64,000 nt of DNA, taken from positions 1-64,000 of the forward strand of contig JAAYLH010000105.1 of assembly GCA_012521995.1 (NCBI GenBank), given 5' to 3'. The notes beneath the pieces are model-generated. The model was not told the DNA's origin. It saw only the letters and a list, made by a program, of their open reading frames with translations, and ran no database searches. This DNA comes from Bacteroidales bacterium. GTDB taxonomy: Bacteria > Bacteroidota > Bacteroidia > Bacteroidales > UBA7960. The first letter of the stretch is position 1. The number at the start of each line of letters is the position of its first letter. Below are positions 5,466-62,193 of the stretch, piece after piece. The position numbers and the translations under genes are program-made.

Positions 5466-5582
5466 ATATAAAACGAAAATTAAACGAATCTGACACGTAA
5501 TTAAGACGTAGTTCAGACGTACGTCATACGTCTTAACTACGTCTTAACTACGTTTTAACTACGTCTTAACTACGTCTGAACT
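5466..5582. repeat. Locus A: 11-bp-phased inverted-repeat array of ACGTCTTAACT-type units
   Basis: Cores ACGA/ACGT at 5473, 5484, 5495, 5506, 5517 | 5528, 5539, 5550, 5561, 5572, all exactly 11 bp apart; left arm is in reverse-complement orientation relative to the right arm. Confidence 0.9.
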
Positions 5583-32243: not shown

Positions 32244-32295
32244 AAGTTAATACGGAGTTTATACGCTTTAAACCGTATAAACTCCGTATTAACTT
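32244..32295. repeat. Locus C: compact 11-bp-phased inverted repeat (CCGTATTAACT-type units, 2+2)
   Basis: Perfect 22-bp inverted repeat AAGTTAATACGGAGTTTATACG-ctttaaac-CGTATAAACTCCGTATTAACTT; cores at 32252, 32263 | 32273, 32284. Confidence 0.9.
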
Positions 32296-42170: not shown

Positions 42171-43958
42171 ATGAGAAAGCTGTATCTTTCCTTTTTTTTG
42201 AAGACAATCGTGTTTATCCTGTTTTTTTTCGGAGTGGGCATTCCTCGTGAAGCGAATGCTTGCGAGGCTTGTAACCGTTTGTTTTTAGGTCAACTTCAGA
42301 ATCAACGGGCAGGAAGCCTGGTGTCCCAGGAATTGCTGGCTTCCATTGCGGCTCAGCAAAACATTGGCCGCAACAACCCGGCAGCCCAGTCTGAGGGCTG
42401 GTCGAACAACACCCTTATTGCTTCAAATACCCCCACTCCGGCAGGCCAGAGCAGGGCTCCACAGGTGCAGCCCGTGCAAGGAGGCAGCCCGGGCCATGTG
42501 CCCCTGGACAATAATATTGACTTCATAGATATCATTCGTCGCGACAACCGCCTGCCCATCCCGCCCACCAGCTTCGTCCCCCAAAATTCCGTTCCAAACA
42601 AGCACGTAAGGATTACCCTTGAGGAAGGGGATGCTTACATTGGAAACGGGGTCATTTACAAGGGGTTCACCATCGACGGAAAGATTCCCGGCCCAACCAT
42701 CATCGTCGATGAGGGCGATATCGTTGATTTCAAGATCGTCAACAATGGTGAATTGCCTCACGGGGCTTCCATACATTCGGTGAACAGCCAGACGTCCAAA
42801 TACCTTGGAAAAGTAGAGGCAGGCGACAGTGCCAACGTGGTATTCAAGGCCAATATGCCAGGGGTGTATATGTACCACTGCGCCCCCGGGGGACACGCTA
42901 TCCCCATGCACATCATCTTCGGGCAATACGGAATGATGGTGGTTCGGCCTAAGAAAAAATATGAACTCGAACGGGTGCTGGGAAAGGATCCCGACATTGA
43001 GATCTTCCTGGTGCAGCACGAATATTACGCCTCGGGCAAGGATGCCGTAGAAGGCCAGGGAAAACCCATGTATACCGCCTTCAATGGCAAACTCTTTCGT
43101 TATGTGGAAGAACCTATTGTCGGAAAACCAGGCGATTACGTAAGAATCAATTTCCTGAATGCAGGCCCCAACCTGCTTTCTACTTTCCATATTGTGGGCA
43201 TCATCTGGGATTTTGCTTACTGGCAAGGGCACCCCGATAATCAATTCATAGGGGGGCAAACCGTCACGGCAGGGCCATCCGATTCATGGGTTATTGAATT
43301 CCGCATTCCTCCGGATGAAGGTACTTATATGATGTTGACCCACGCCGTTGGCTCAACAGACAGGGGGGCCATAGGCTTGCTGGTCTGCGACCGGGATGCC
43401 GAAGCCCAGAAGACCTACCTTTCCGACGGAATCAAATATTCCGATGAGCAAATGGCCCGGTACCGCGAACAGGCCCTGCGCACCATTACCCCCTTTGGCA
43501 TCGGATCGCCCGATGTGGATGTGCCTGTGGTTTTTGGCCCCGAAACCAAGGAAGTCACAGTTCGCATCATTGGCAATTCCTACTATCCAAAAGTAATCCA
43601 GGTGGCTCCGGGCACCGCGGTCAGGTGGATTAATGAAGATGTCTTCTCTTATATGGAAGGCGAATTTGCAGGCATCCATAACGTGATTGTCAAATCGGGC
43701 CCAGAACGCTTTGCCTCCGATATGCTTGCACATGCCGAGAGCCATTCTCAGGTCCTTACCCAGGAAGGCGAGTATCTATACATCTGTACGCCTCACCCTT
43801 ATATGGAAGGTAAGATAATTGTTTCCAAGGATTCAGGAACCCCCGGTGTGCAGTATGCAGGAACCGGAACTCCTGCTACCAGTAGAATGATGTGGGTAGT
43901 GCTGGTCATTGCTGCCTTTGCCCTCATGATCGCATTGATCAGCCTGATCAACAAATAG
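42171..43958 (+). CDS. NirK/AniA-like multi-cupredoxin protein with extra C-terminal cupredoxin and TM anchor
   Basis: LPHGASIH, GVYMYHCAPGGHAIPMHIIFGQYGMMVV, NLLSTFHIVG, GTYMMLTHAVGSTDRGAIG; C-terminal GIHNV...YLYICTPHPYMEGKIIV; terminal TM. Confidence 0.85.
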   Translation: MRKLYLSFFLKTIVFILFFFGVGIPREANACEACNRLFLGQLQNQRAGSLVSQELLASIAAQQNIGRNNPAAQSEGWSNNTLIASNTPTPAGQSRAPQVQPVQGGSPGHVPLDNNIDFIDIIRRDNRLPIPPTSFVPQNSVPNKHVRITLEEGDAYIGNGVIYKGFTIDGKIPGPTIIVDEGDIVDFKIVNNGELPHGASIHSVNSQTSKYLGKVEAGDSANVVFKANMPGVYMYHCAPGGHAIPMHIIFGQYGMMVVRPKKKYELERVLGKDPDIEIFLVQHEYYASGKDAVEGQGKPMYTAFNGKLFRYVEEPIVGKPGDYVRINFLNAGPNLLSTFHIVGIIWDFAYWQGHPDNQFIGGQTVTAGPSDSWVIEFRIPPDEGTYMMLTHAVGSTDRGAIGLLVCDRDAEAQKTYLSDGIKYSDEQMARYREQALRTITPFGIGSPDVDVPVVFGPETKEVTVRIIGNSYYPKVIQVAPGTAVRWINEDVFSYMEGEFAGIHNVIVKSGPERFASDMLAHAESHSQVLTQEGEYLYICTPHPYMEGKIIVSKDSGTPGVQYAGTGTPATSRMMWVVLVIAAFALMIALISLINK

Positions 43959-43999
43959 CTTGGGGTTAACCTTATAGTCCTTGTCAGGCGATTCAATAG

Positions 44000-44035
44000 T
44001 GGCTGTCCCAAGGTTCCGGGACAGCCATTTTTGTT
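44000..44035 (+). terminator. Intrinsic terminator after the NirK-like gene
   Basis: TGGCTGTCCC...GGGACAGCCA followed by TTTTTGTTTTT. Confidence 0.75.
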
Positions 44036-44182: not shown

Positions 44183-44298
44183 AGTTAAAACGTAGTTCAA
44201 ACGTAGTTAAGACGTAGTTCAGACGTAGTTCAGACGTGTATACACGTCTGAACTACGTCTGAATTACGTCTAAGTCACGTTTAAGATACGTTTTATTT
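44183..44298. repeat. Locus B: 11-bp-phased inverted-repeat array of ACGTCTGAACT-type units (5+5)
   Basis: ACGT at 44190, 44201, 44212, 44223, 44234 | 44244, 44255, 44266, 44277, 44288; about 48 of 58 positions pair between arms by hand count; centre ACGTGTATACACGT is a perfect palindrome. Confidence 0.95.
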
Positions 44299-44556: not shown

Positions 44557-45432
44557 TTACCTCAACAGGGCATCGGCCATAAAAACCAGCATTATGGCAA
44601 GATAGAAGACGTTGATGGTAATGAAGGCGGGTTGTGGATTGGGTGTCTCGGGGGCTTTGTGCCAATTGCGAAACAACCAAACCAAGACGATTGCAAGGGC
44701 AAAGATGGTCAGGTTCAGCAGAGGGGAATGAATCACTCCGAAGAGGGCAGGGAGGATGGCTGCCATGGCGGTTGCTGCTACCCAAATAAGGGTCAGGTTG
44801 GCGATTTGTCTTATAGTGAAAAGGCGTGTAATGGTGGGAAAACCTGCCTTCTCATAGTCATTGCCGTGCCTGAGCAGGATAAGCCAAAAATGAGGGATTT
44901 GTCCAATGAAAAAGAAGAAGGCCACCAGGATGATTTTGGGGTTGGTGATGTTTCCTCCCGCAGCTGCCCATCCTATGAGTGGTGGGAGGGCCCCAACAAG
45001 CGATCCCGGTACTACAGCAAAGGCTGTAATTTGCTTCAGCCTGGTATAGATCAGGTTGTACCACAACAGTGTGATGAGACCCAGGACCAGGGGCGTCAAG
45101 GTATTTAGGCTTGCGAGGATGGCAGAGCCCCCCGCCACCAGCAATGCCGAGAATATTGCTGCCTCTGTCCTTGAGAGCCTGCCAGAGGGTATGGGCCGCT
45201 GGCGGGTGCGATCCATCAAGCTGTCGAGCCGGGCTTCCTGAAGGTGGTTTATTGTGGCGGAACCCGCCGACAAAAGGAATACTCCCAGGGTAACCCTGAA
45301 CCATCCTTCAGCAAAAAAGCCCTGACTGAGGATAAAACCCGTCAGGGCGGTCAAGGCAACCGAAAGAGTTACCAAAGGTTTTGTCAGTTGGAGGAAAGCT
45401 ATTGATTTTTCCTTAATTCCCTGCTTATTCAT
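44557..45432 (-). CDS. ctaB: Protoheme IX farnesyltransferase (heme O synthase)
   Basis: UbiA family: TINHLQEARLDSLMDRTRQRPIPSGRLS; GQIPHFWLILLRHGNDYEKAGFPTI. Confidence 0.93.
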   Translation of the reverse strand: MNKQGIKEKSIAFLQLTKPLVTLSVALTALTGFILSQGFFAEGWFRVTLGVFLLSAGSATINHLQEARLDSLMDRTRQRPIPSGRLSRTEAAIFSALLVAGGSAILASLNTLTPLVLGLITLLWYNLIYTRLKQITAFAVVPGSLVGALPPLIGWAAAGGNITNPKIILVAFFFFIGQIPHFWLILLRHGNDYEKAGFPTITRLFTIRQIANLTLIWVAATAMAAILPALFGVIHSPLLNLTIFALAIVLVWLFRNWHKAPETPNPQPAFITINVFYLAIMLVFMADALLR

Positions 45433-62147: not shown

Positions 62148-62193
62148 GACGGTTTAAACCGAATTAACACCGTCTAAATTCCGTTTAAACTCC
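62148..62193. repeat. Locus D: short 11-bp-phased inverted-repeat array (CCGTTTAAACT-type units)
   Basis: Cores ACGG 62149 | CCGA 62159, CCGT 62170, CCGT 62181; centre CGGTTTAAACCG is a perfect palindrome. Confidence 0.7.

Follow-up and report, generated by a model that had tools for sequence, protein, structure and literature searches.

Results

An inverted array of 11-bp units lies between two converging genes

The window, the whole 64-kb stretch of DNA analysed here, contains a NirK-like gene and ctaB that converge on an intergenic array of short repeated units (Table 1). The array consists of five 11-bp units, an 8-bp centre and five inverted units in a head-to-head arrangement, and it lies far above chance expectation. 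The pattern ACGT-N7-ACGT-N7-ACGT, with at most one mismatch, occurs 13 times in the window as compared to 0.02 expected from shuffled sequence, and all 13 matches fall either in this array or in another near 5.5 kb. A sequence-only reading of the locus had described ten ACGT cores separated by 11-bp steps, with a single 10-bp step at the centre. The cores sit where that reading placed them and the spacing is right, but the repeating unit is better written AGTTnAnACG(T). The innermost 23 positions of the arms pair perfectly, as it had counted, and the measured arms (44186-44240 and 44241-44295) are 85% complementary without gaps. Its placement of the array between the NirK-like gene (+) and ctaB (-) was confirmed, as was a separate ordinary terminator, which it had put at 44000-44035. 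Its description of the outer units as more degenerate than the inner ones needs correction: the right arm is degenerate and the left arm is perfect.

Table 1. Coordinates of the arrays and neighbouring features in the window
Feature	Position	Strand
Focal array, left arm ("perfect"), with five successive 11-bp units AGTTnAnACG(T)	44183-44236	+
Focal array, 8-bp centre TGTATACA, alternating purine-pyrimidine like most type 1 arrays	44237-44244	.
Focal array, right degenerate arm: five inverted units, mainly A..T.A.ACG positions kept	44245-44298	-
Ordinary intrinsic terminator of the NirK-like gene, apart from the array	43994-44033	+
NirK-like multicopper gene, upstream of the array and oriented towards it	42171-43958	+
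ctaB (protohaem IX farnesyltransferase-like), neighbour converging on the array	44557-45432	-
Second type 1 array: perfect arm 5529-5582, 9-bp centre 5520-5528, degenerate left arm	5466-5582	.
Type 2 array: AGTTAATACGG AGTTTATACG - CTTTAAAC - inverted copies	32245-32294	.
Degenerate half array resembling type 2, with a single arm (CGGTTTAAACCGAATTAACACCGTCTAAATTCCGTTTAAACTC) and centre GGTTTAAACC; flanking genes converge	62151-62193	-

The 64 kb contain 17 exact single units, 16 of which belong to the arrays near 5.5, 32.2 and 44.2 kb; the 17th lies at 62.15 kb, inside the degenerate half array. When phased palindromes were sought irrespective of sequence, exactly three loci came up, namely the arrays near 5.5, 32.2 and 44.2 kb. 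The arrays near 5.5 and 32.2 kb each have an orthologous array in the closest congener (L157 and L158, respectively). No Rfam family was matched in the window. Folded as RNA and compared with shuffled sequence, the + strand of the focal array reached -69.4 kcal/mol (z -11.3) and its - strand -70.1 (z -12.2), and the long hairpin that had been proposed is therefore possible on either strand.

The arrays form a dispersed family limited to one genus

The family was traced through the window's own genome (G000, an uncultured Bacteroidales of 3.26 Mb in 140 contigs), its closest congener (G001) and the further congeners G002, G003 and G004; L numbers denote individual loci. Judged by ctaB, the nearest named relatives of the source organism are UBA4814 and KA13, at 73-74%. 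G000 contains 139 two-unit matches and 50 palindromic centres (dyads), as compared to 0 and 1 in the reversed control, and G001 contains 81 dyads as compared to 2. Two-unit matches numbered 160 in G001, 14 in G003, 14 in G004 and 0 in G002, and two-unit arrays were absent from the remaining 95 family- and order-level relatives among the 100 genomes compared (G000 included). The arrays are a genus-limited dispersed family, of which the focal locus is one of about 50 copies in G000. No array matches were found in phages, plasmids or viral contigs, and no earlier description was found in the literature covered, which was incomplete.

Alignment of 42 type 1 arrays revealed one almost invariant arm, TAGTTnAnACG repeated five times with unit 3 mostly AGTTAACACG, and an opposite arm that conserves TAnnTnAnACG. 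The 8-bp centre of type 1 arrays is usually TGYRYRCA in G000 and G001. In the flank outside the strict arm, the C from ACG continues to recur with the 11-bp phase, at a frequency of 0.54, as compared to about 0.2 for most of the other phases (permutation p 0.004). Type 2 solo arrays, those dispersed between genes, are restricted within the genus to G000 and G001. Two variations in form were also seen. A type 2 sub-type extends outward with in-phase 11-bp units such as CGACCATGGTA and CCTCCATGGTA (L100, L110 and L125 in G000; L173, L174, L204 and L207 in G001). At the centre ACGTGYRYRCACGT (e.g., window 44234-44247), purine-pyrimidine alternation spans 14 bp in most G000 and G001 copies, the bases themselves varying, and the centres of most G003 and G004 copies are instead A/T-rich.

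Gene context was counted with calls from a simple ORF-scoring script rather than curated annotation. Array-bearing intergenic spacers have a median length of 531 bp, as compared to 93 bp in the background, and 54 of 102 arrays lie between tandem genes, 38 between convergent and 10 between divergent ones, as compared to 470, 92 and 126 of 688 background gene pairs; convergent pairs are thus enriched (38/102 vs 92/688). The candidate role of intrinsic terminator for the adjacent transcript was not supported: another, simple terminator stands between gene and array at 73 of 134 facing gene ends, as compared to 29 of 110 background ends. The arrays mostly fill space beyond transcription units. A polar replication signal was likewise discarded, as array orientation bears no consistent relation to local GC skew (15/22 in G000, 6/15 in G001).

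The motif is conserved and the pairing is not

In a set of 46 arrays, the variable positions of one arm pair with those of the other no more often than in shuffled arms (z about 0), with observed over expected pairs of 18/18.6 in unit 1, 17/16.3 in unit 2 and 14/13.2 in unit 3, whereas A..T.A.ACG is conserved in both arms separately. Because the variable positions do not co-vary, base pairing is not the conserved feature, and an RNA hairpin maintained by compensatory pairing was rejected. The dyad arises instead because each arm independently fits one directional motif, as the half-sites of a protein do. This bears on the suggestion in the sequence-only reading of a cruciform or hairpin: the array can fold on both strands, but the evidence is against either structure being what is selected. 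By hand count the strict arm comes first at 7 and last at 6 tandem-gene loci of G000, so neither direction relative to transcription is favoured.

Orthologous counterparts in G001 exist for more than 25 of the G000 arrays. Comparison of nine orthologous type 1 pairs gave identity at 389 of 405 fixed strict-arm positions (96%) and at 57 of 90 variable ones (63%), the latter no higher than among unrelated arrays (64%); the flanks are 66% identical, the flanking proteins 70.6%, and array orientation is the same in 9/9. Purifying selection on the motif is a simpler reading of these sequence comparisons than wholesale homogenisation, since the latter would have evened out the variable positions as well. 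At some orthologous sites type 1 in one species stands opposite type 2 in the other (L098/L166, L109/L201, L123/L178 and L102/L187), which implies either that the types are interchangeable or that sites are hit repeatedly. The focal site itself is unshared. The nirK-ctaB spacer is about 70 bp and arrayless in G003 and G004, as compared to about 600 bp here, and no units lie around ctaB in G001. The earlier reading had regarded a lack of phased units in close relatives as a case against it; such relatives exist at this site, but the family itself is not refuted, because more than 25 arrays elsewhere are conserved between orthologous positions.

Matching arrays precede the promoters of DUF6266 genes

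Arrays L105, L116, L162 and L185 precede paralogous genes. Those at L105, L116 and L185 were identified by Pfam as DUF6266 (PF19781; E 1e-15 to 1e-18), and the gene at L162 was recovered as DUF6266 in a family search of the genus. DUF6266 genes number 9 in G000, 6 in G001, 2 in G003, 6 in G004 and 0 in G002, a pattern of presence across the five genomes that equals that of the arrays. All 16 complete clade-I DUF6266 genes in the genus have an 11-bp phased palindrome upstream, a test passed by 1 of 773 control upstream regions, and the units differ in sequence (AGTTCAGACGT, AGTTAATACGG, AGTTTAACCGT, GTATCTCGACC and others). In 16/16, the distance from the dyad centre to a promoter box, AATTTGnTTAnnTTTG, is 41, 52 or 63 bp, that is, 41 bp plus whole units (the distances at L278, L296 and L298 were measured separately). 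This box resembles the sigma-ABfr -7 consensus TAnnTTTG (as quoted in PMC7366714). The spacing places the array upstream of the transcript at these genes and not inside it. The presence of matching arrays just before DUF6266 promoters suggests that DUF6266 is a DNA-binding protein that recognises them.

Array similarity tracks DUF6266 protein similarity (Mantel r 0.44, 0/20,000 permutations) in a set of 16 arrays, one of which, L298, was mis-centred, an error whose only possible effect is to lower the correlation. Part of the correlation stems from shared descent of the gene-array cassette. The type 2-linked DUF6266 gene is found within the genus in G000 and G001 alone. G003 has type 1 solo arrays, yet the array next to its DUF6266 gene is of a variant form, AGTTnAATCGT. 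A scan of 0.52 Mb of G000 found no dispersed units for three other DUF6266 paralogues and one occurrence of a single unit of a fourth.

The more distant clade II genes often have short upstream 11-bp tandems, CCGTATCAAGT, the complement of which, ACTTGATACGG, resembles the type 2 unit. At three clade II loci (L309, L324 and L325, in G136 and G075) the DUF6266 gene is followed by a gene for a protein of 450-580 aa with the same N-terminal domain, and at 2/3 of these loci a J-domain protein precedes the DUF6266 gene. The N-terminal domain seems to act as a module to which different C-termini are attached.

A confident AlphaFold2 model of DUF6266 (pLDDT 87.7) has a small sheet of basic character at the N-terminus, together with three helices and a sandwich of FN3-like form, and residues 1-60 carry a net charge of +5 to +10. 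Foldseek matched the C-terminal domain to the FN3-like fold only, and the N-terminal domain, modelled by itself with three strands and three helices (pLDDT 83.9), had no PDB match; no DNA-binding fold was thus recognised. The predicted structure and charge would permit DNA binding. In Pfam, DUF6266 had no match among nuclease or transposase families, no DUF6266 matches were found in phages or plasmids, and no described function or DNA target of PF19781/DUF6266 proteins was found in the literature covered.

Similar arrays occur elsewhere in the order

A generic, sequence-light search for ACG every 11 bp was run over 295 Bacteroidales genomes. Because it also catches ordinary tandem repeats (about 20 genomes in the reversed control), only multi-locus genomes were used. 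One of these, G181, from another Bacteroidales family, has its own dispersed unit, ACG[GC]TTnATCT, with 158 two-unit matches, and its arrays have one strict and one loose arm, as in the genus of G000. By eye, a clade-I DUF6266 gene of G181 lies about 250 bp downstream of this unit, and a second DUF6266 gene has a different phased palindrome. Arrays in G110 and G247 directly precede small proteins (about 100 aa) that by eye resemble the DUF6266 N-terminal domain and that Pfam did not recognise. Head-to-head 11-bp arrays of ATACGG / CCGTAT occur in another family of the order, in G104 (L220, L243) and G303 (L219, L242), two genomes with no PF19781 matches.

Discussion

The analyses demonstrate an array family with a motif conserved per arm without covariation and across species, linked to a gene in register with its promoter, and co-diverging with the paralogues of that gene. 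They strongly favour an array that acts at the DNA level and is read by a protein. We regard it as an even call whether the locus is a binding-site array for a cooperative DNA-binding protein, for which DUF6266 is the most likely candidate, with solo copies that are probably architectural. Such a sequence-specific protein would place one protomer on each 11 bp, about one DNA turn, head to head about the 8-bp centre. The focal locus would be a dispersed copy of an operator-like array whose promoter-linked form lies directly upstream of DUF6266 genes, in register with the promoter. Binding would be through the basic N-terminal domain, a three-stranded sheet plus helices, and every paralogue would recognise its own unit. 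DUF6266 may regulate its own promoter through the linked array and may also decorate tens of solo arrays between genes, often past terminators, where the arrays could serve local nucleoprotein assembly or mark a boundary between convergent genes rather than terminate transcripts. Our confidence in DUF6266 as the binder is moderate, and in the solo arrays as architectural sites it is weak. Counting against DUF6266, an FN3-like domain is an unusual component of a DNA-binding protein, no DNA-binding fold was recognised, the DUF6266-linked array of G003 differs from its type 1 solo arrays, G104 and G303 carry phased palindromes but no PF19781 match, the units of three other paralogues are not dispersed in the part of G000 examined, and the co-divergence of gene and array could instead reflect joint inheritance of a duplicated cassette. 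A bolder extension, which we consider possible but somewhat doubtful, is that DUF6266 constitutes a new family of array-reading DNA-binding proteins, the paralogues of which polymerise head to head on their own arrays, control their own promoters and organise the chromosome (or spread selfishly) via tens of inter-operon solo arrays, with specificity re-invented by each lineage.

There is precedent for dispersed palindromic repeats that have a cognate protein family. REP/REPIN elements and their RAYT transposases are the example, the repeats being GTAG- or CGTC-tagged palindromes that form single stem-loops of 20-40 bp (PMC3733652). Like them, the arrays are dispersed intergenic palindromes, tens per genome, mostly near gene 3' ends, and have a cognate protein family with paralogues that match repeat types. 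They are not, however, short tagged stem-loops: REPs typically have 6-9 bp stems and a tetranucleotide tag, whereas the arrays are about 50-120 bp of repeated 11-mers, phased, with up to 5+5 units and no arm covariation, and are linked to DUF6266 rather than to a tyrosine transposase, at a fixed register upstream of the promoter. Phasing, lack of pairing, promoter register and protein family are the points of difference. A cognate Y1 (RAYT) transposase was also sought and rejected, as counts of PF01797 (1 in G000, 1 in G001, 3 in G002, 2 in G003 and 6 in G004) do not follow array number. The ParR-bound parC site of plasmid R1, discussed in PMC9426499, likewise has ten repeats of 11 bp that fall into two groups, is tied to the promoter of an operon under its control, and forms a multimeric nucleoprotein array. 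Its repeats are direct, plasmid-borne and beside the parM ATPase gene; those described here are inverted, chromosomal, in many copies and DUF6266-linked, and no par operon was noted among the ORFs near arrays that were read in detail. Intrinsic terminators and BIME-like elements share the inverted repeats in inter-operon space, whereas the arrays are about 110 bp, lack a consistent U tract and covariation, and have separate terminators.

The model of paralogue-specific binding would give the DUF6266 family a first testable function. The repeat family is defined by an 11-bp phase as its conserved feature, not by base pairing. If DUF6266 binds solo arrays, Bacteroidales would possess a sequence-specific system that decorates the chromosome with paralogue-specific codes, and, if true, this would be a counterpart of ParB/parS or REP/RAYT built from other components. 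Pairs of paralogue and unit offer natural material on the evolution of binding specificity.

The two main rivals are a selfish repeat family and a separate regulator. The arrays may be selfish or mobile palindromic repeats, in which the DUF6266 gene and its array are the master and solo arrays are non-autonomous copies, spread by the DUF6266 element or another enzyme as REPs are by RAYTs. Copy number that is genus-limited and varies by species, two dispersed types that fit two linked gene types, the absence of an array at the focal site in three congeners and the exchange of types at orthologous sites are all consistent with this reading. We nevertheless consider it unlikely, given that more than 25 arrays occupy common orthologous sites with constrained fixed positions, that DUF6266 has no match to nuclease or transposase families in Pfam, that the number of Y1 transposases does not track that of arrays, and that phages, plasmids and viral contigs lack the arrays, and phages and plasmids DUF6266. 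It is also rather unlikely that the arrays are operators of another regulator, with DUF6266 being just one target. The fixed register upstream of its promoter and its FN3-like C-terminal domain would suit a target, but the strong parallel divergence of units and paralogues is not favoured under a single shared regulator, and solo arrays lie mostly away from promoters.

A transcribed long hairpin, acting as a bidirectional terminator or as a stabiliser of mRNA 3' ends, would draw on the very stable predicted folds (z -11 to -12) and the enrichment at convergent pairs; it is improbable in view of arms that do not co-vary, the ordinary terminator often found between gene and array, the absence of an orientation preference by hand count, and the position of the array upstream of the promoter at DUF6266 genes. 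An assembly artefact or adapter contamination, the former raised in the sequence-only reading, can practically be dismissed. The 13 nt AGTTCAGACGTGT (window 44227-44239) are identical to part of an Illumina TruSeq adapter, a match judged to be a coincidence. Independent assemblies contain arrays of the same kind at independent sites, about 130 of them in two assemblies, with units varying in register and orthologous positions conserved, which makes an artefact very unlikely. Adapter trimming could, conversely, harm such arrays in assemblies.
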